Source: an uncultured Verrucomicrobiota bacterium
GTDB lineage: Bacteria > Verrucomicrobiota > Verrucomicrobiia > Opitutales > Intestinicryptomonadaceae
DNA length: 64,000 nt
NCBI GenBank assembly: GCA_949293415.1
Contig: CASFDK010000041.1
Coordinates: forward strand, 1-64,000
Reading direction: 5' to 3'
This document shows positions 1 through 57,539 of the stretch, in pieces. The translations under genes were made by a program, and so were the position numbers. Within the stretch, counting starts at the first letter, position 1. Every line of letters begins with the position of its first letter. Under the pieces are notes generated by a model, which saw only the letters and a program-made list of their open reading frames with translations, was not told the DNA's origin and did not search any database.

Positions 1-169
1 AGCGAAGCTACGCTGTTTAGGCTTGTCAAAATAGGTTTCAGGCGGTGGCTTTACATTTCGGCGGCGGTGCGAGCATATTAGCATATGTGACCACTGCCGC
101 CGAAATGTGAAACGCCGCATCAAGCCTATTTTCACAAGCCCAAAAAAACTCTCGGCTATCCGCAAACCT
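1..169. repeat. Composite palindromic repeat element, copy 1
   Basis: The first 27 bases are identical to 23697-23723, and 117-169 matches 23947-23999 at nearly every position. Between these shared ends lies a long hairpin: 18-34 pairs with 129-144 (one mismatch), 53-65 pairs perfectly with 96-108, and the tip pairs CATAT (74-78) with ATATG (83-87). The element stops 2 bases before the thiH stop codon, so it forms the 3' flank of that operon. It may continue left of the window. No protein reading is credible here. Confidence 0.75.
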
Positions 170-171
170 AC

Positions 172-1290
172 TCACAACGTAAAGAAGTCTTTCCAGACGG
201 GATCGAGTCCGTGCTGCCGTAACGCCTCCGCGAATTCCTGCGGGGTTCTTCCGTCGTCGATGTGGAATTGCTCTCCGCTTTCCTCGCGGTCGGCGTATCC
301 CCCCGGCTTTGTGCTGCTGAACGCGCTCATCTGCGTTACGCCAAGCCCCATCAGTCCGTCGCGCAGCTTGCGGCTTTCGCGCGTCGATACAACTATCGCA
401 AGACGGCTGAGGAAAATGCGCAGTGCACACGTCACCTGAACAAGCTCCCTGTCGTTGGGAATGTTTTCGGGCAGCGGAACATAGCCGCTCGCCGCGGGAC
501 GCATACGCGGCAGACTTATCGAAATCTGCGATTTCCACGCCTTGTGCATAAGGTATTTTGCATGCAACGCCACGGCGAGAATCTCGAAACGCCACTCGTT
601 GACGCCGAGCAAGGGTCCGAGTCCGAGCTTGCGCATACCCGCTTCCGCGCCGCGCTCGGGAGTGCCGAGCCGCCACCAAAAGACCGATTTCGGTCCCGAC
701 GGATGCAAAGTTGGATATACTTTTTCGTCGTAAGTTTCCTGAAATACTGTCAAACCCTCGCATCCCGCATCGACGTACTTTTTGTAGTCTACCACGCGCG
801 ACGGGGCGATTTCTATCGAAACAGACGGCATCTTTTTTATCGCGATGTCGATTACGTCCGCAATATAGCCCGAGGAAACGAGCTTCGGATTTTCGGCTGC
901 GACCAGAAGAATATTGCGGAAGCCGAGGTTGTATATTGCATCGACCTCGCGGCGAACTTCGTCGAGCGTAAGTGTTCTGCGCTCGATTGCGTGCCTGTGC
1001 GCGAAGCCGCAGTAGACGCAGTTGTTTATGCACTCGTTGCTGACGTAAAGCGGCGCGAACATACGCATTGTCCTGCCGAAATATTTGCGGGTGATGGCGG
1101 CGGAAAGGCGCGCCATAGGCTCGATGTACGCTTCGGCGGCGGGCGAAATGAGCGCGGCGAACTCTTCGAGCGAGTTTGCGCAACCGCGGCGAAGTATCAA
1201 TTCGACATCGCGCGGAGACGTTTTGCGGCAGGCGGCGGAAAGTTCGTGCAGGTCGTGGCTACGCAGTTCCTCGAGAAACGTGTCTTTCAT
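172..1290 (-). CDS. thiH: 2-iminoacetate synthase ThiH (radical SAM)
   Basis: 372 aa. ThiH cleaves tyrosine with S-adenosylmethionine to give dehydroglycine for the thiazole ring of thiamine, in the cytoplasm. The radical-SAM cluster motif CxxxCxxC is visible at Cys87, Cys91 and Cys94 (CINNCVYCGF), and the length is normal for ThiH. The ATG has a GGAG ribosome site 9 bases upstream that overlaps the thiG stop, so thiG and thiH are likely translationally coupled. It is the last gene of the coaX-TPR-HhH-thiG-thiH run. No thiS, thiF or thiC is visible nearby, so the sulfur carrier must be encoded elsewhere. Confidence 0.95.
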   Translation of the reverse strand: MKDTFLEELRSHDLHELSAACRKTSPRDVELILRRGCANSLEEFAALISPAAEAYIEPMARLSAAITRKYFGRTMRMFAPLYVSNECINNCVYCGFAHRHAIERRTLTLDEVRREVDAIYNLGFRNILLVAAENPKLVSSGYIADVIDIAIKKMPSVSIEIAPSRVVDYKKYVDAGCEGLTVFQETYDEKVYPTLHPSGPKSVFWWRLGTPERGAEAGMRKLGLGPLLGVNEWRFEILAVALHAKYLMHKAWKSQISISLPRMRPAASGYVPLPENIPNDRELVQVTCALRIFLSRLAIVVSTRESRKLRDGLMGLGVTQMSAFSSTKPGGYADREESGEQFHIDDGRTPQEFAEALRQHGLDPVWKDFFTL

Positions 1291-10581: not shown

Positions 10582-12326
10582 GAAAAGAAAAAAACAGAAA
10601 CATCGAATCGGGCATATTCTTCGGAATACTTACGCGGTATTTCGACGAAAAAAAAGGCGCGTGGCGGTTTGCTCCAAATTTCAAAAGGCTCGCGTTGGCG
10701 GTTGTCGGAACGGCGGCGTTGTTGTGGGTCGCCGCGGCGGTCGCGGTTTTCTGCGGGTTTAAATATCTCAGAAAATACGAAAACATATCCTTTCTCGAAG
10801 TGCTGCAAATGCCGTTTGCAACCGACAGGTACCGCACGGAAATGGGCGAAGCCCAAATTGCGGCGGGGCGCGAATGTCTGAAAAACGGAGACTATCAGGG
10901 CGCGTTTATGAATATGGCCGGCGGCGTTGCGCGTTCGCCCGACAATCTCGAGGGGCGCGTATTCCTCGCCCAGATGTATCAAATGCTTTTGCGCGACTCG
11001 GAAAAGGCGGCTGAAACACTCGATTTCAAAATAGCAAAGGCGTTCGATGCAAAAGATAAAAACTATCTAAAATTATCAATATCCATTTTCGCGTTGTCGA
11101 ACGACTACCGGAAGAAGGCGGCTATGCTTGCGGCGCGCTGCGTGGACTCGGGCGTGCTGTCGCCGGAGGAAACGTTCGGGGCGGTAGCCGCGCCCTTCAG
11201 GATGTTCTCGGCGGACAGGCGTTTCGACACGGCAGCCGACTTCGCAGACGACCTGCTCGAATTCGCCAAGGATAGAAAATTCGCAAAGTTGGTTGCGCAG
11301 AACGGCGCAATCGCGATGATTTCAAATTGCGAAAACCAGCGCGCAATCGACACGCTGAAAAAAGCCGAAATATATTCGGGCGAGGTTTTGGTGCTCGCAA
11401 CCGCCGCCGATATGATAGACAGCGGGCGCGAGATTTCCGCGCTAAAGCTCATCAATACTGCGTTGAAATCCGCTCCGAACAAATCGGCGTGTTACGAAGT
11501 GCTCTCGCGTATCTGCGACGATTTCGGCGACGCGGCGGGCGCGAAAAACGCCAAGAGGTTCGCGCGGCTGACATCGGGCAACATCGCCGAAGCCGAACTG
11601 CTTTCGATAGAGGCGAAATCGGACGGAGACGCCCTCGAGGCTGCGAAAAAATTCGCAAAAAACAATCCCGACAAAATACAAAGTCTTGCCCTCGCCGCAA
11701 CGCGCAACGGCAATGCCGAAATAATCGACTTTTGTCTTGGGCAGAAGCAGCCGCCGCACACGGAATTTGCGCTAAAGTTGGCGAAGGCGGAAATCTATAT
11801 TTCGAAGGGAAATCCGAACGACGCGCTCGCGGCTCTCGATTCCGCGCGTTTCACCGAGTTTGCAAAGTACCGCGTTAAATCGCGCGACCTCTTTACGGGA
11901 TATGGGATTGCGATAAATGCGCTTTCGGGAAAAAACGTTTCGGAGCAAATCGAGACCTACATCAATGCGGAACAACGGCAACCCGCGGAAGTTTCCTCTC
12001 TGATAACTCTTCTGCGCCGTTCAAAGCTCCGCGAGCAGGCTCTCTTTGCCGCCGAAAAGGGTCTTTCGCGCTTCCCGAAAAATTCTAAAATAGCCGCCGC
12101 CTACTGCGACTGCGCCGCCGATGCCAACGACCTCAACGCCCTTGCGACCGCGGCGGACAAATACAAAATCAAGCTCCCCGTAAAATATGCGGCGGTTCTC
12201 GGCGGCTATGTACTTTCGGACAAAAACATTTTTATGGACGAAGCCAAAATAAAAGTACTCGCAAAAAAGGCCGACGTCGCAAAACAGAAAATAACACAAT
12301 ACAAAAATATATACGGCAATTTTTAA
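10578..12326 (+). CDS. Membrane-anchored TPR protein of the T2SS operon
   Basis: 582 aa from the ATG that overlaps the gspF stop (ATGA). A basic cytoplasmic N-terminus of about 35 residues precedes one transmembrane segment (LALAVVGTAALLWVAAAVAV, about 37-58). The rest is helical TPR-like repeats (AAGRECLKNGDYQGAFMNMA; PNLEGRVFLAQMYQMLL; FPKNSKIAAAYCDCAADAND) that would face the periplasm. Translational coupling to gspF suggests an assembly role, perhaps replacing GspL/GspM, which I do not find in the window. No homology-based name is justified. Confidence 0.75.
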   Translation: MRKEKNRNIESGIFFGILTRYFDEKKGAWRFAPNFKRLALAVVGTAALLWVAAAVAVFCGFKYLRKYENISFLEVLQMPFATDRYRTEMGEAQIAAGRECLKNGDYQGAFMNMAGGVARSPDNLEGRVFLAQMYQMLLRDSEKAAETLDFKIAKAFDAKDKNYLKLSISIFALSNDYRKKAAMLAARCVDSGVLSPEETFGAVAAPFRMFSADRRFDTAADFADDLLEFAKDRKFAKLVAQNGAIAMISNCENQRAIDTLKKAEIYSGEVLVLATAADMIDSGREISALKLINTALKSAPNKSACYEVLSRICDDFGDAAGAKNAKRFARLTSGNIAEAELLSIEAKSDGDALEAAKKFAKNNPDKIQSLALAATRNGNAEIIDFCLGQKQPPHTEFALKLAKAEIYISKGNPNDALAALDSARFTEFAKYRVKSRDLFTGYGIAINALSGKNVSEQIETYINAEQRQPAEVSSLITLLRRSKLREQALFAAEKGLSRFPKNSKIAAAYCDCAADANDLNALATAADKYKIKLPVKYAAVLGGYVLSDKNIFMDEAKIKVLAKKADVAKQKITQYKNIYGNF

Positions 12327-16588: not shown

Positions 16589-18556
16589 TTATCGTTTCTT
16601 GGGGGTGGAACGCCCGCCGGGGTTCTTCTTGCGTTTTTCGTAGAGCGTTCCCTTGAGGCGGTCCTCCTTGAGCTTTTCCTTTGCCTTGCGGGCGTCTTCG
16701 GCTGCGATTCTCAGGCGTTCCTTGAGCGGGAGTTTTGCGAAGTCTTCGCCGCGCTTTTCCTGCGCCGCCTGTGCCTGCTCCATCGCCAATTGCATTTTCT
16801 GCATAAACGACGGCTTTGTGCGCTTTTTCAGAACAACCTTGTCTTTGCCCATTCTGATAATCAACGCCTGCAAAATGCCAAGCAAGCTTTGGACGAGCCA
16901 GTAAAGCACCAAGCCCGACGGGAATGTGTAGAAGAAAAGCAGCATAACCACGGGCATAAGCTTGAACATCATAGCCTGTGTTTTGTCGGTCGACGGCGTC
17001 GGGTTGAGGTGCATTTGGATGAATGTCACAAGCGCGTTGACAAGCGGCAAAATGTGGAGCGGAATGCCGAAGACGCTCGGAATGCTTTCGATTGTATCGG
17101 GCAGCGAGAGGTCTTTCACCCACATAAAGTGGGCGAAGCGGATTTCGCACGAAGTCTGGAGCATATAGTACAATCCGATGAAAATCGGGATTTGGATGAA
17201 AATCGGCAGGCAGCCCGCAAGCGGGTTGATCCCGTATTCGGAGTAGATTTTCATCGTCTCCTGTTGCACGCGCTTTGGGTCGTCCTTGTATTTTTCGCGG
17301 ATTGCCTTTACGGGCTCCTGAATCTTCGCCATGCGCTGTGCCGACTTGATTTGAACCGAAGTCAGCGGCCACAAAATAAGGCGGACGATGAGCGTAAGGA
17401 TGATTATCGACCAGCCCCAGCTCCAATCGGGCGAGACCGTCTCGACCCAAGAGTTAATCCACACGAGCAGGCGCGAAAGCGGACGGCTGACGAAACCGAA
17501 CCATCCGTAGTTCATAACCTCCTCTTGCCCCGCGCCGAGCGACGCAAGCGTGTCGAGCTCTTTCGGACCTACATAGTATGTGCCCGAAATTTCCCACGAC
17601 TGCCCCGCCGCAATCGATTCCGCCGCAAAGCCCATAAAGCCCGCGACCGAATTTTTCATGTACTTGTTGTCGGTCTTGAAACCCGTTTTGAGCGGAATTG
17701 CGAAGCCCGCGTTCGACGTTCTACCCTCGGGCGTGAAGACAGCCGCAAAGAACTGGTTTTTCACCGAACCCCAAGTCGAGTCGGGCGCGGAGACTTTCTC
17801 GAAAATATGCGCCTGTGTTGCGCCGATTCCCAAGAAGCCCGAGCTGTCGATGAACGAACTCGACCGCGCGAAGTGCGCACTGCCGTTGTAAAGCAGGAAC
17901 GCCAAATTCGAGCCGTACACATCGCTTTCCGTGGGCGGCACCGCGCCGAGGCACATGTAAACTTCGCGCAACGAAAGCGGCTTGTCGGAAAGGTTTTCGA
18001 TTTTTGTCTTTGCGAAAATCGTGTACTTCGTGAACTCCAATTTGTCGGCTTTAACAAGCGTATATGTGCGCGAAATGCGCATTTTGCCCGCCTCCACATA
18101 CTCGTACGAAACGGTGTCGCCCGACTTCGCCTCGAGCCTAAACGGCTTCAAAAACGGCTGCGGAAGTTCGCCCGACGGATCGAAGAACGCAAGGCTCAGC
18201 GCGGGATATGCGCCGCTTACATTGTTGAACGAAAACGGTTCGTCGGAACCCTGCTTGTCGGCGTACTTGAGAACTTTTACGTCGGCGATTGCCCCGCCCC
18301 TGTTGGTGAATCTTACCGAAATGTTTTCGTTGCCGATACAGCAAAACTGCTCCCTTGCGTTGGAATCGGCCGATTTCAACGCGGACACGGGCTGGACTTT
18401 CGGCGCGTTTTTCTGCGCCTCCGGCATTGCGGCAACCTTCGCCGCCTCCGCCTGACGCGCGCGCGCAACCGCCGCGTCTTTAGTGGTGGAATCGTACATA
18501 AAGTAGAATGCCGCAATTATCAGCAGCACCCCGATGATTGTGTTCTTCTTATCCAT
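16589..18556 (-). CDS. yidC: Membrane protein insertase YidC
   Basis: 655 aa, the long Gram-negative form. YidC inserts and folds inner-membrane proteins, alone or with SecYEG. An N-terminal transmembrane segment (NTIIGVLLIIAAFYFMYD, residues 4-21) precedes a large periplasmic beta-sandwich domain (about 65-370). The 60KD_IMP membrane core follows (about 385-590), with SWGWSIIILTLIVRLILWPL carrying the hydrophilic-groove arginine and the PIFIGLYYML segment. The C-terminal tail is highly basic. It sits in the conserved rpmH-rnpA-yidD-yidC order. Confidence 0.96.
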   Translation of the reverse strand: MDKKNTIIGVLLIIAAFYFMYDSTTKDAAVARARQAEAAKVAAMPEAQKNAPKVQPVSALKSADSNAREQFCCIGNENISVRFTNRGGAIADVKVLKYADKQGSDEPFSFNNVSGAYPALSLAFFDPSGELPQPFLKPFRLEAKSGDTVSYEYVEAGKMRISRTYTLVKADKLEFTKYTIFAKTKIENLSDKPLSLREVYMCLGAVPPTESDVYGSNLAFLLYNGSAHFARSSSFIDSSGFLGIGATQAHIFEKVSAPDSTWGSVKNQFFAAVFTPEGRTSNAGFAIPLKTGFKTDNKYMKNSVAGFMGFAAESIAAGQSWEISGTYYVGPKELDTLASLGAGQEEVMNYGWFGFVSRPLSRLLVWINSWVETVSPDWSWGWSIIILTLIVRLILWPLTSVQIKSAQRMAKIQEPVKAIREKYKDDPKRVQQETMKIYSEYGINPLAGCLPIFIQIPIFIGLYYMLQTSCEIRFAHFMWVKDLSLPDTIESIPSVFGIPLHILPLVNALVTFIQMHLNPTPSTDKTQAMMFKLMPVVMLLFFYTFPSGLVLYWLVQSLLGILQALIIRMGKDKVVLKKRTKPSFMQKMQLAMEQAQAAQEKRGEDFAKLPLKERLRIAAEDARKAKEKLKEDRLKGTLYEKRKKNPGGRSTPKKR

Positions 18557-18577
18557 CGTTATAAAAATAAGCAGATA

Positions 18578-18880
18578 CTAATTATCGAACGGCGCGGGTT
18601 CGTCAACTTTGTTTTGCGAAAATAGTTTGCGCCACGAAAACTCGCGCGGGACGTAGTCGAAGCCCCCATCGCAAAACGGATTGCACCGCAAAATGCGGCA
18701 CGCGCCCATCAGAACGCCCTTGAATGCTCCGTGCCGCGAGATGGCAATCAGGGTGTATTCCGAACAGGTCGGGTAAAAGCGGCAACCGCTGCCGGGTATC
18801 AAATGCAGTATCGGCGAAACCGCCAGCTGGTAGAATCTGACGGCGAGCCAACAGGGGGCGGACAGCAGCCCGCGCGGCAT
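18578..18880 (-). CDS. yidD: Membrane protein insertion efficiency factor YidD
   Basis: 100 aa. The YidD signature is clear: [20 protein letters not shown] followed by YPTCSEYTL, then [15 protein letters not shown]. It helps membrane insertion with YidC. I chose the ATG one base after the rnpA stop; another in-frame ATG at 18901 would overlap rnpA by 20 bases. The ending is 21 bases before yidC. Confidence 0.93.
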
Positions 18881-20462: not shown

Positions 20463-20597
20463 GCTTGGTAGGTATTGCGTTGCAACTGGTCAAGTGTTCG
20501 CAGCATACTTGGCGTACGCGCGAAGTCCGTAAAAAGTAAGTTCGAAAAACAATTCGGGCGTTCACGAAAGAAAGCAAAACTTATCCCGTAAACGCCC

Positions 20598-20639
20598 TAA
20601 AAAACTTCCGCGCCCCAGCGCACTAATTTTAGGCGCGTC
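20598..20639 (-). terminator. Candidate original terminator of the GH42-like gene
   Basis: On the minus strand CGCGCC (just after the ancestral TGA) pairs with GGCGCG and is followed by GAAGTTTTTT. The palindromic insert at 20652-20737 now separates it from the coding sequence. Confidence 0.5.
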
Positions 20640-20640
20640 A

Positions 20641-20748
20641 AAGTGCTTTCATAAGGGTGGCTTTGCGAATCGTACAGGGCGCAGCGCGTACTTAACGTAC
20701 GTGTGCGGTCTGTACGGTTTGCGAAACACCCTTAGGGAAGTGCTTTCA
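20641..20748. mobile_element. Palindromic insertion flanked by 11-bp direct repeats
   Basis: AAGTGCTTTCA occurs at 20641-20651 and again at 20738-20748. Between them (20652-20737, 86 bases) is an almost complete palindrome: TAAGGGTG ... CACCCTTA at the ends, CGTACAG ... CTGTACG inside, and a GTACTTAACGTAC tip. The right copy is the last coding sequence of the GH42-like gene, whose stop TAA (20732-20734) lies inside the element. Reading across the left copy instead gives the same residues followed by TGA. This is what an insertion with target-site duplication would leave. Confidence 0.75.
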
Positions 20749-23011
20749 CGCGCCGTTGAAGGAAGACGGCACCCTTTTCAGGTATCGATATTTCGTCGCC
20801 TTCTTTGTATGTTTTCCCGCTTATCGCATCCCTGTACTCGCCCTTCAAGTTCAGTTTGAATTGAACGGCATACTTCGGGAAAATGCCCACAAAACGCGAA
20901 TCGCCGTAAATCGTACAATATTCGGGCGCGACAAAATCGACCTTTGCCGACTCCGCAATCTTGCGCAGCTTTTCGGGAGTCAGGAACGGCACGCCGCAAA
21001 CGTAGTGCGTTTTGTCGCCGATTTTCTTCGAGACAAGCGCAACGCCGTCAAGCCCGTCGGCGTACTTCGCCAGAACTTTTACGCCCTTGCCCTCTTCGAT
21101 TTTGAAGACGGGATAGCCCCTTTTCTTTGCGCTTGCGCCTATACCTTCGGCGAAATTGCGCTTTGCGTCTATCGTGCCCACGAAGTCGCCCGCGCCGACT
21201 ATCGAGAATTTTTCGGGAACATCCTCTACGGGCGTAATTTTTACGCCCGTAAGCTTGCGCGAATTTTCCAAGTCGAAACCGTTTGGCGGACGCACGCCCG
21301 CCGCGTAGTTCCAGACGACCGCCGCGCCCTCGGGCAACCGCTTTTCGATTTTCCGCCAAACCTTCGGAGTGATTGCAACGGGATTTGCAAAGAACACCAT
21401 TTTGTAGTTCGACAAATCTACATCCTTCAAGTCGGAAAGTCTGTAGTGCTCAACCTGCGCTCCGATGAGATTTATATCGGGATAGGTCTGGCGCAAAAGG
21501 TCGTCATGCAGGCGCGCGTTCGGACGCATCGCAAGGAACGCGCGTTCGTCGGTGACGTAGAGAACCTGCGCGGAACGCCTTCCGCTCTTGTCGGCGCGGA
21601 TGGGTGCGATTTCCTTCTCGATTTTCGTGACCTCGGCGAGGACATCGGGTGTTGTGTACCAGTCACCCTTCAAGTCCATCCACCAGAAGCCCGCGCCTAT
21701 CGACAGGTCTTTCGAGACTTCGCGCCACATCACGGTGCGCGTCTGCGACATACTGTCGGACGAGAGGTTCGACATATCGCCCTTCTTATAAGTGTGCGGC
21801 GGATTGTCGAGCTCGTCGATATAGAGTTTTTTGCGGGAAATCGACATTGCCGCGTTTTGATAGCCCCCGGGGTCGCCCGCGAGATTGCGTTCGTAGGCTT
21901 TCGGCGCACAGATGAAGTCGATGTTTTCGCTCGCCAGAAGTTGGTTGTACGCAAGATGTCCGAGGTAGCCCGCGCGCGGAACGTTCATATAGTAGCCGTA
22001 GAACGCGCCGACTGCCTTGCCGCCGCTCGCGTCTTTTACGACTTTGCCGAATGCGTCGAGCGCGGTTGCCGTGCAGTGGCTGAAAAAGTCTTCAATGTCG
22101 ATGCAAAGCTGCGCGTCGGGCGAATCGCGGAAGAAGTCGGCGGTGTTTTGCCAGAGGCTTTCCCTGCGTTCCGTCGACGGCATTTCCACGTTTTCGCGCG
22201 AGAGATTGGGCTGGTTCCAAGCCTTTGCGAGGGCTTCGTGCGAGCCGTATTTTTCCAAACCCCAGTCGTAGAATCTGCGGCTGAACGCCTTGCCGTTGTC
22301 GCCCATATTGTAGCGCGTGCGGTCTTCCTCCCATCCGCGCCAGTTGGCGCATTCGCCAGCCACGCCGAATGCGATGTGGTAGCCGATGATTCTATCGGCG
22401 TATTTCGATTTCTCAAGGTGCTCGATGAATTTACGCAGTGCGACGCTCGCGTCGGCTACCCATTTTTTCGACGCGAAGCTCTGTAAACCCACTTTGAATT
22501 TCGGTCTGATTCCGTGGAAGTCGAATTCGCCCCTGTTGTAGAGGTCGGTAATTTCGGCGTTTGTGAGTTTGAACGGGTAGAAAACCGTTGCCTCTTCGGG
22601 ATTTTTTGCGCACCACGTCGGAGGAACGTTGAGTTTTACGCGCGGCATATAGTATGCGTCGGGCGCGTTTTTGAAAATCGCCTCGAGCGACTTATCCGTC
22701 TCGGTGTAGTCGAAGAGGTCGTTGCCGAGCCAGCCCGTCGAAATGTTCGTTGTCATAATTCTGACGCCCGCTTTCGACATCAGTTTGACATAGTTTTCGG
22801 TCTTTGCGTCGGTCTGCGCTATCATCGCCGCCTTGCCCGATTTCAGCGCGGCGGGCGGATCGCAGGGCCAACCGAGTTTGCACCAGAACATCGAGTTGTT
22901 CACTACAACATCTTTGAATTTTTCCACATCCCATTTTACCGCGTTTTCAGCCGCACAGGCAAAGTGCGCCGCAACCGATACAAGCGCAATATATATCAAA
23001 CTCTTTCTCAT
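20732..23011 (-). CDS. Secreted GH42-like (clan GH-A) glycoside hydrolase, putative
   Basis: 759 aa with a signal peptide (MRKSLIYIALVSVAAHFACA). A TIM-barrel domain covers about residues 40-470. It has a segment typical of the GH42 beta-galactosidase acid/base region (IIGYHIAFGVAGECANWRGW, with Glu near 218) and a strand-7 candidate nucleophile in KKLYIDELDN. A GH42-like trimerisation/Rossmann domain follows (about 490-650: AQVLYVTDERAFLAM, YKMVFFANPVAITPKVW), then a small beta domain. The specific substrate is unknown. The final residue and stop codon come from an inserted palindrome (20652-20737). Confidence 0.7.
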   Translation of the reverse strand: MRKSLIYIALVSVAAHFACAAENAVKWDVEKFKDVVVNNSMFWCKLGWPCDPPAALKSGKAAMIAQTDAKTENYVKLMSKAGVRIMTTNISTGWLGNDLFDYTETDKSLEAIFKNAPDAYYMPRVKLNVPPTWCAKNPEEATVFYPFKLTNAEITDLYNRGEFDFHGIRPKFKVGLQSFASKKWVADASVALRKFIEHLEKSKYADRIIGYHIAFGVAGECANWRGWEEDRTRYNMGDNGKAFSRRFYDWGLEKYGSHEALAKAWNQPNLSRENVEMPSTERRESLWQNTADFFRDSPDAQLCIDIEDFFSHCTATALDAFGKVVKDASGGKAVGAFYGYYMNVPRAGYLGHLAYNQLLASENIDFICAPKAYERNLAGDPGGYQNAAMSISRKKLYIDELDNPPHTYKKGDMSNLSSDSMSQTRTVMWREVSKDLSIGAGFWWMDLKGDWYTTPDVLAEVTKIEKEIAPIRADKSGRRSAQVLYVTDERAFLAMRPNARLHDDLLRQTYPDINLIGAQVEHYRLSDLKDVDLSNYKMVFFANPVAITPKVWRKIEKRLPEGAAVVWNYAAGVRPPNGFDLENSRKLTGVKITPVEDVPEKFSIVGAGDFVGTIDAKRNFAEGIGASAKKRGYPVFKIEEGKGVKVLAKYADGLDGVALVSKKIGDKTHYVCGVPFLTPEKLRKIAESAKVDFVAPEYCTIYGDSRFVGIFPKYAVQFKLNLKGEYRDAISGKTYKEGDEISIPEKGAVFLQRRVKALP

Positions 23012-23110
23012 TCAATTTCTTAGCGTTTTGTTAATAGATGCTCAGATGACACAGGAAAGGATAAAGCACAAAAAAACGCAAACATTCAACAAAAAAACGA
23101 AGGCTGCAGC

Positions 23111-23240
23111 AAAGGCGAAGCCCTTGACGGACGGAACTCCGTTCCTTTCTGTGGTGCTACGGCGCGGCTATAACCGCGCCTTTTGTTTATAAGCCCGCAT
23201 TGGCTTTGCCAATCGCTTCGGTTATCCGAACTTATTTTGT
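23111..23240 (+). repeat. Multi-hairpin repeat, copy A
   Basis: It opens with AAAGGCGAAGCCCTTGACGG and then carries three successive palindromes: GGAACTCCGTTCC, GGCGCGGCTATAACCGCGCC, and ATTGGCTTTGCCAAT. It is nearly identical to 23265-23388 (copy B) and shares order and spacing with 57321-57496 (copy C). Strand is given relative to copy C, which has the same orientation. Confidence 0.8.
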
Positions 23241-23264
23241 TGTTTTACGAAACCGAATTTAAAC

Positions 23265-23388
23265 AAAGGCGAAGCCCTTGACGGACGGAACCCCGTTCCT
23301 TTCTGTAGTGCTGCGGCGCGGCTATAACCGCGCCTTTTGTTTATAAGCCCGCATTGGCTCTGCCAATCGCTTCGGTTGTTCGAACTTA
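23265..23388 (+). repeat. Multi-hairpin repeat, copy B
   Basis: Direct tandem copy of 23111-23240. Differences from copy A fall mainly in loops (GGAACCCCGTTCC, ATTGGCTCTGCCAAT), leaving each stem intact. It ends at TTCGAACTTACC. Confidence 0.8.
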
Positions 23389-23696
23389 CCTTGAAGATAC
23401 CCAAAACCGAGTTAAAAAATACAAAAAATTGCGAGCAATTTTTAAGTAGAATGATAACCGACGAAGTGAAGCGAAGCTTCTCGAAGTGGCTAAGCGGAAG
23501 CAAGGCGAATGCCAAGCTTCCCTATCTGCCCGAGAAAAAGAGCGCAAGCGATTTTTCAAGGGCGTGTAGAATAACTCCGAACGAAGCAAAGCAAATGCTT
23601 TGCGAAGTGGGCAACTGCCGCAAAAGAGCGAAGCGAGTTTTGCGTGTGAAATTAAACTCTACTATCCGCAAACAAAAATTAAAAAACTCCGTGCGT

Positions 23697-23999
23697 AGCG
23701 AAGCTACGCTGTTTAGGCTTGTCGCTCCGAAAGGGGGCTTAACCGTCGCCCCCTTTGGCATTTTCGACAAGCGAAAATCGCCAATCCCCTCCCAATCGCA
23801 CTTTGCTTCGAGATTTGGGCTACGGTAAAGAAGGGTGGCTTTGCGCAGAGAGGCGACGGAAGTGTACTTAAGTACTCGACCGAAGCCGAACAAGCGAAAC
23901 GCCCTTGACGGGCAATTTGCGCTTTGCTTCGCAGAACGCCAATCGCGCATCAAGCCCGATTTCAAGAGCCCAAAAAAACTCTCGGCTATCCGCAAACCC
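23697..23999. repeat. Composite palindromic repeat element, copy 2
   Basis: It has the same 27-base left end and 53-base right end as element 1-169, with a longer interior. Inside are a hairpin AAAGGGGGC / GCCCCCTTT enclosed by GCTTGTC / GACAAGC (about 23717-23769), and at 23831-23906 a tip-conserved hairpin (AAGGGTGGCTTTGCG ... GCGAAACGCCCTT) whose centre is the perfect palindrome GTACTTAAGTAC. It ends 10 bases before the rpsU terminator. Confidence 0.75.
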
Positions 24000-57320: not shown

Positions 57321-57496
57321 AAAGGCGAAGCCCTTGACGGCAGGCTGCAGCCTGCACGGCTACGGAACTTCGGGCGCGAGCCGCGCCGGTCATCGGAACT
57401 TCGTTCCTACTTGTGATACTGCGGCGCGACTATAGTCGCGCCTTTTCTGTATAAGTTCGCATTGGCTTTGCCAATGGCTTCGGATTTTCGAACTTG
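57321..57496 (+). repeat. Multi-hairpin repeat, copy C
   Basis: Starts AAAGGCGAAGCCCTTGACGG as at 23111 and 23265, then contains an extra 60-base stretch with its own palindromes (GCAGGCTGCAGCCTGC and a GGCGCG ... CGCGCC pair). The shared hairpins follow: GGAACTTCGTTCC, GGCGCGACTATAGTCGCGCC and ATTGGCTTTGCCAAT. Compared with copies A and B the second stem has a G-C pair changed to A-T, keeping the pairing. It fills the convergent gap between the ATPase and hemB. Confidence 0.8.
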
Positions 57497-57539
57497 TCTT
57501 GTTTTTTCCGAAACCGTTTTTTATTTAGTGAAAAGCCGT

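Follow-up and report, generated by a model that had tools for sequence, protein, structure and literature searches.

What keeps the two arms of a hairpin complementary when their sequence changes from one copy to the next is the question raised by the window, the whole 64,000-nucleotide stretch analysed here, which comes from an uncultured Opitutales bacterium of the Verrucomicrobiota (genome G000; 2.32 Mb, 52 contigs) whose nearest named genomes are Opitutales SIG75 and Puniceicoccaceae bacterium Marseille-Q1082. The pattern GGTGGCTTT N40–70 GAAACRCC matches the window three times, with zero matches expected from shuffles, confirming the three hairpins that a sequence-only reading had described, and the arm pairs quoted in that reading are correct. 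All three hairpins are the inner parts of longer palindromes, which are arranged with their neighbouring features as follows.

20–140, plus strand: full-length hairpin of copy 1, its outer arms being GGCTTGTCAAAATAGG / CCTATTTTCACAAGCC and its inner arms ACATTTCGGCGGC / GCCGCCGAAATGT (fold z −10.1; model match at 39–121, 90.9 bits)
44–116, plus strand: inner hairpin of copy 1, between the conserved GGTGGCTTT and GAAACGCC (tip-pattern match)
1–14, strand unassigned: remnant of a small hairpin beside copy 1 (..AGCGAAGCTACGC), cut by the contig start (read from the sequence)
172–1290, minus strand: thiH-like gene ending just before copy 1, with C-terminus FFTL*, shorter than in most relatives
20632–20754, plus strand: copy 2, whole hairpin, with outer arms GGCGCGTCAAAGTGCTTTCATAAGG / CCTTAGGGAAGTGCTTTCACGCGCC (fold z −11.5; model match of 86 bits)
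20656–20730, plus strand: inner hairpin of copy 2, with arms GCGAATCGTACAG / CTGTACGGTTTGC (tip-pattern match)
20483–20631, plus strand: probably a degenerate half unit preceding copy 2, reduced to a left arm and tip (judged from alignment)
20732–23011, minus strand: gene reading into copy 2, where its frame ends in ..RRVKALP*
23716–23970, plus strand: copy 3, larger and branched, with a poorly paired inner hairpin (model match of 37.6 bits)
23834–23903, plus strand: inner hairpin of copy 3 (tip-pattern match)
23693–23709, plus strand: small companion hairpin GCGTAGCGAAGCTACGC near copy 3

Copies 1 and 2 fold well, with 0 of 200 dinucleotide shuffles equally good, whereas copy 3, for which a single bulge had been described, contains a large internal loop. 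Because its fold is also weak (z −2.4 against dinucleotide shuffles), copy 3 is a decayed or variant copy. The left arm and tip upstream of copy 2 probably represent a degenerate half unit, of the kind that other B-type copies show in their tandem arrays. The small hairpin beside copy 1 is truncated here; its intact copies are followed by a T-run in gene sense.

The complete element spans 120–255 bp, with the tip-motif hairpin as its inner part. The first half runs RGGC(TT/GC)GTC – arm2 – TTCA – GGTGGCTTT – arm – tip, and the second half returns through arm′ – GAAACGCC – ATCAAG or AGGGAAG – arm2′ – CAC(AA/GC)GCC, the feet being GGCTTGTC/CACAAGCC or GATTTGGCG/CGCCAAATC. Both arm pairs (arm/arm′ and arm2/arm2′) vary from copy to copy. 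The fixed parts comprise the foot loops GTC/CAC and GGTGGC/GAAACGCC or GCGAGTAT/AACGSAGC, a G·U pair often followed by a G·G mismatch, and the tip GCGTAY-N5-RTACGY; loops and tip are conserved across species.

The exact tip pattern matches 19 times in the own genome, with none for the reversed-pattern control, but gives chance matches only in relatives, so that a structural model is needed to see the family. A covariance model built from 12 aligned copies yields 38 matches in G000, a few of which are antisense echoes of the same palindromes, 47 in the genus mate Marseille-Q1082 (G001) and 53 in G030, a 1.3-Mb genome from another family of the order. A further 1–5 matches each occur in G004, G009, G012, G015 and G018, most other genomes have none, and a second model applied to 273 genomes of the order is positive in 9. 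The collection of tip-motif matches that the sequence-only reading had proposed therefore reveals a genome-wide family, patchily distributed and reaching high copy number in three genomes (G000, G001 and G030). Seven contigs of the own genome (C5, C7, C11, C15, C28, C44 and C52) end less than about 250 bases from a copy, and window position 1 does likewise; the assembly thus seems to break at these hairpin repeats, and the true copy number in this genome may be higher than counted.

Pairing of the changing arms is maintained far beyond what shuffled controls reach. Among the 12 aligned copies, 95.6% of cells pair against 76.6% when shuffled, both partners have changed in 19 pairs, and covariation scores 0.564, compared with 0.222 for shuffled and at most 0.164 for slid alignments; with 56 copies the score becomes 0.657, against 0.195 and at most 0.133, respectively. 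The covariance model and covariation test suggested at the outset thus return a strong excess of compensatory change, and the arms pair better than shuffled sequence, which bears out the claim that pairing is either selected or copied. Because the paralogues are related, an alignment-free test was also run, comparing how well each left arm pairs with the right arm of its own copy and with those of all other copies. Outer arms pair much better with their own partners in all three species (−22.3 versus −12.0 kcal/mol in G030, −16.5 versus −7.1 in G000 and −21.4 versus −13.5 in G001), the controls leaving some paralogue relatedness. In G030, where cores are near-identical and outer arms nearly all different, 44 copies carry 43 distinct left outer 14-mers. 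A chance origin of the hairpins is rejected, with tip-pattern matches, fold z-scores and covariation all beyond shuffled controls.

The finder's strand, hereafter the folding strand, is the more stable one in 52 of 53 copies when folded under RNA parameters; DNA parameters favour it in 53 of 53. Several G·U/G·T pairs are kept at fixed positions, and wobble pairs on this strand are retained as G·T rather than A·C (97 versus 7 cells in G000; 21 versus 3 in G001), while in G030 A·C exceeds G·T at variable positions, where the alignment is partly out of register. This one-strand preference fits RNA or single-stranded DNA equally and does not separate them. It does, however, disfavour strand-symmetric palindrome correction acting alone, so that inverted-repeat correction, one of the causes offered in the sequence-only reading, is unlikely as the sole cause.

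At its 3′ end the folding strand meets the stop codon of a gene encoded on the opposite strand, to which it is thus antisense. A stop codon lies within 12 nt of the element's 3′ end in 31 of 45 G030 copies and 18 of 26 G001 copies, compared with 7 of 45 and 3 of 26 at the opposite end; subfamily A of the own genome follows this rule less closely. The usual G001 junction, T followed by GATTTGGCG, yields a TGA stop, and junctions in other frames append a short tail to the protein (..DLANAFGE*). The host genes are unrelated and full length, encoding S-adenosylhomocysteinase, FabH, LptF/G, a Na/H exchanger, GlgC, HemB, an AcrB-type pump, a phosphorylase and a penicillin-binding protein, and the elements give such housekeeping genes extra C-terminal residues and new 3′ ends. 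In gene sense, the small hairpin with its T-run comes after the long hairpin, an order suggesting that some elements may also end transcripts.

Copy 1 is an insertion relative to related genomes: no element stands behind thiH in six relatives, most of which have a longer C-terminus. This presence/absence difference, as looked for in MITEs, points to movement of the elements. The gene at copy 2 is too diverged in the genus for an empty-site comparison. An autonomous parent element was sought, but all-against-all comparison of the flanks found no shared coding sequence around the copies, only shared non-coding modules of up to about 480 bp. Phage carriage was rejected, two pattern scans of viral contigs giving one match, inside an ORF and judged chance.

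Elements also form arrays, not all of whose units are complete. In three G001 arrays, located after rplS, after a glutamate-dehydrogenase-like gene (both named by eye from C-termini) and after a third gene, the arms match in the unit at the stop codon and are mismatched in many later units, so that pairing is kept where the element is complete. Within G001, locus L163 (C2:60001–80000) holds tandem arrays behind genes at 1421–2261, 11066–12188 and 18352–18872; their units measure ~170 bp and carry a terminator-like hairpin with a T-run, and the arms are matched in the first unit but not in many of those after it. At two further loci the host gene itself supplies an arm. In L056 (around 1501–1640), the end of glgC, GACGGAACGGTATAG, serves as the gene-side outer arm and the far arm GGAACGGTA is complementary to it; in L115, the end of the AcrB-gene, CAGATGGCGGTAAAATAG, does the same opposite CAGATGGCGGG. 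These two cases do not amount to proof, but fit with fold-back copying, or else with compensatory change opposite an arm under constraint.

A link of element orientation to replication is shown for two species, G001 and the own genome. In contig 1 of G001, the GC skew changes sign near 750 kb, and the elements reverse their orientation at the same place. With tandem copies taken once, the folding strand lies on the negative-skew strand at 35 of 39 loci (binomial p ~2 × 10⁻⁷; the skew-arm boundaries of contig 2 are noisy), unlike the genes, which split about evenly between the skew strands in a baseline for which genes were called simply as longest ORFs within 20-kb samples, part of these being masked. 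Agreement with skew-linked orientation is found for 17 of 21 regions of the own genome (p 0.004). Copies in G030, unlike those of the two genus mates, are mixed in orientation within contigs, and no replication link is evident. A preference for highly expressed co-directional genes could lie partly behind the orientation bias. The larger element, its place at gene ends, its replication-linked orientation and its mobility all go beyond the sequence-only reading.

The enzymes that move comparable sequences are absent from the copy-rich genomes or stay below cut-off there. Neither the RAYT-type Y1 transposase (PF01797), present in 20 of the 54 genomes of the set, nor reverse transcriptase (PF00078) is matched in G000, G001 or G030; TnpB and the IS110 transposase (PF02371) were not found in the copy-rich genomes, and the integron integrase model TIGR02249 gives nothing above cut-off there, only Xer-like scores. 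A seemingly giant Xer-like protein of 605–614 aa from the integrase search was set aside, the 605-aa case being an open frame upstream of an ordinary recombinase. Because these enzymes are absent or below cut-off, REP/RAYT, IS200/605, IS110, retroelement, retron or group II intron, and integron are rejected. A known RNA family is likewise rejected, since 4227 Rfam covariance models, applied at gathering score over the window and at E 0.5 over eight loci, matched only tRNAs. A literature search gave nothing matching either, and no named family was found for the elements, in line with the sequence-only reading.

Integron attC sites lie behind stop codons as imperfect hairpins with free arm sequence and are recognised as one folded strand. 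The elements share the stop-codon position, imperfect hairpin, free arms and single folding strand, but attC sites form a clustered gene-cassette array whereas the elements are dispersed over contigs, and inspection by eye showed no attC R-box motif in them. Bacterial MITEs (ERIC, NEMIS/Correia, bcr1) are 100–260 bp long, palindromic, mobile and intergenic, with transcribable hairpins, and mostly keep their sequence. The elements are of similar length, palindromic, apparently mobile and intergenic; in contrast to the MITEs, they swap whole arms within one genome, and no parental insertion sequence or target duplication was identified for them. IS200/IS605 ends are recognised as one folded strand with an orientation linked to replication, features that the elements appear to share, but that system has Y1 TnpA or TnpB, neither of which was found in the copy-rich genomes. 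The elements further resemble REP, BIME and REPIN sequences in being palindromic, high-copy, intergenic and placed at gene ends. REPs, however, are 20–40 bp long with a GTAG or CGTC foot and a RAYT, so that a Y1 transposase is expected, whereas the elements are 120–255 bp long with other feet and changing arms, and the three copy-rich genomes lack Y1. GTAG REPs can supply the stop codon of flanking ORFs, and Opitutus terrae, of the Verrucomicrobia, is rich in them (PMC3733652).

The explanation that we favour, with confidence that is about evenly balanced, is a new family of non-autonomous, structure-dependent mobile hairpin repeats of gut Opitutales with a REP- or MITE-like habit. It draws on the covariation, the own-partner pairing, the one-strand stability and the excess of G·T over A·C in G000 and G001, together with the stop-codon position, the unrelated full-length hosts, the GC-skew orientation, the absence behind thiH and the patchy distribution. 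Against it stand the lack of a transposase candidate, of a target duplication and of a base-resolution empty site, as well as the mixed orientation in G030. An enzyme would act on a single strand in its folded form, recognising the fixed loops and the tip, so that the arms would be selected only for being double-stranded. Insertion would favour gene ends and one of the two replication strands, as a substrate of single-stranded DNA at the fork would predict. We infer that single-stranded DNA is the acting form, that an enzyme is involved, and that selection rather than copying keeps the arms. A bolder version, in which a new class of mobile element spreads as a folded single strand at replication forks to stop codons without the known single-strand transposases or reverse transcriptases, its arms re-made to match, sometimes through the host's last codons, so that sequence is free and pairing is inherited, is possible but doubtful.

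Transcription of the folding strand into structured RNAs, antisense to the 3′ end of the upstream gene and with a protein-binding tip and internal loops, spread being a secondary matter, would account for the G·U pairs at fixed positions, the one-strand stability and the conservation of loops and tip across species. Some 50 copies with a patchy distribution would nevertheless be unusual for one functional RNA, the strand preference is the same with DNA folding parameters, and the transcript and its promoter on the folding strand are hypothetical; we regard this reading as unlikely. The elements might instead act in cis on the upstream mRNA, as a 3′-end module serving transcript stability, ribosome release or termination, and have spread and persisted because they make a good 3′ end, as their place at stop codons and the small hairpin and T-run that follow in gene sense would suggest; for REPs lying no more than 15 nt from a stop codon, an effect on translation is reported (PMC12306157). 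Yet the mRNA strand is the less stable one, with C·A where the other has G·U, and most genes of the same genome have no element, making such a module improbable. It is very improbable that fold-back copying by template switching, and not selection, keeps the arms complementary. Under such copying, host coding sequence can provide the gene-side arm and be copied into the far arm, as the coding outer arms and complementary far arms at glgC and the AcrB-gene illustrate, but a strand-symmetric process would not keep G·T over A·C, nor fixed mismatches while the arms change, and array units with mismatched arms persist uncorrected.

The dozens of paralogues within one genome, with fixed loops and compensated, changing arms, amount to a natural mutagenesis experiment on structure-only recognition. 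The replication-linked orientation and the stop-codon position make the route of entry testable, and the lack of the usual enzymes points to a mover not yet recognised.

Other small hairpins accompany the elements in the window. Upstream of copy 3, positions 23440–23715 form a long intergenic mosaic of small hairpin modules (GAAGTGGGCAACTGCCGC, AAGAGCGAAGCGAG and GCGTAGCGAAGCTACGC), many of whose stems carry C-GNA-G triloops on the folding strand, a loop that is very stable in DNA. Additionally, a 154-nt repeat, itself composed of small hairpins (GGAACTCCGTTCC, GGCGCGGCTATAACCGCGCC and GCATTGGCTTTGCCAATCGC), occurs as a tandem pair at 23110–23417, with a third unit 34 kb off at 57372–57525.
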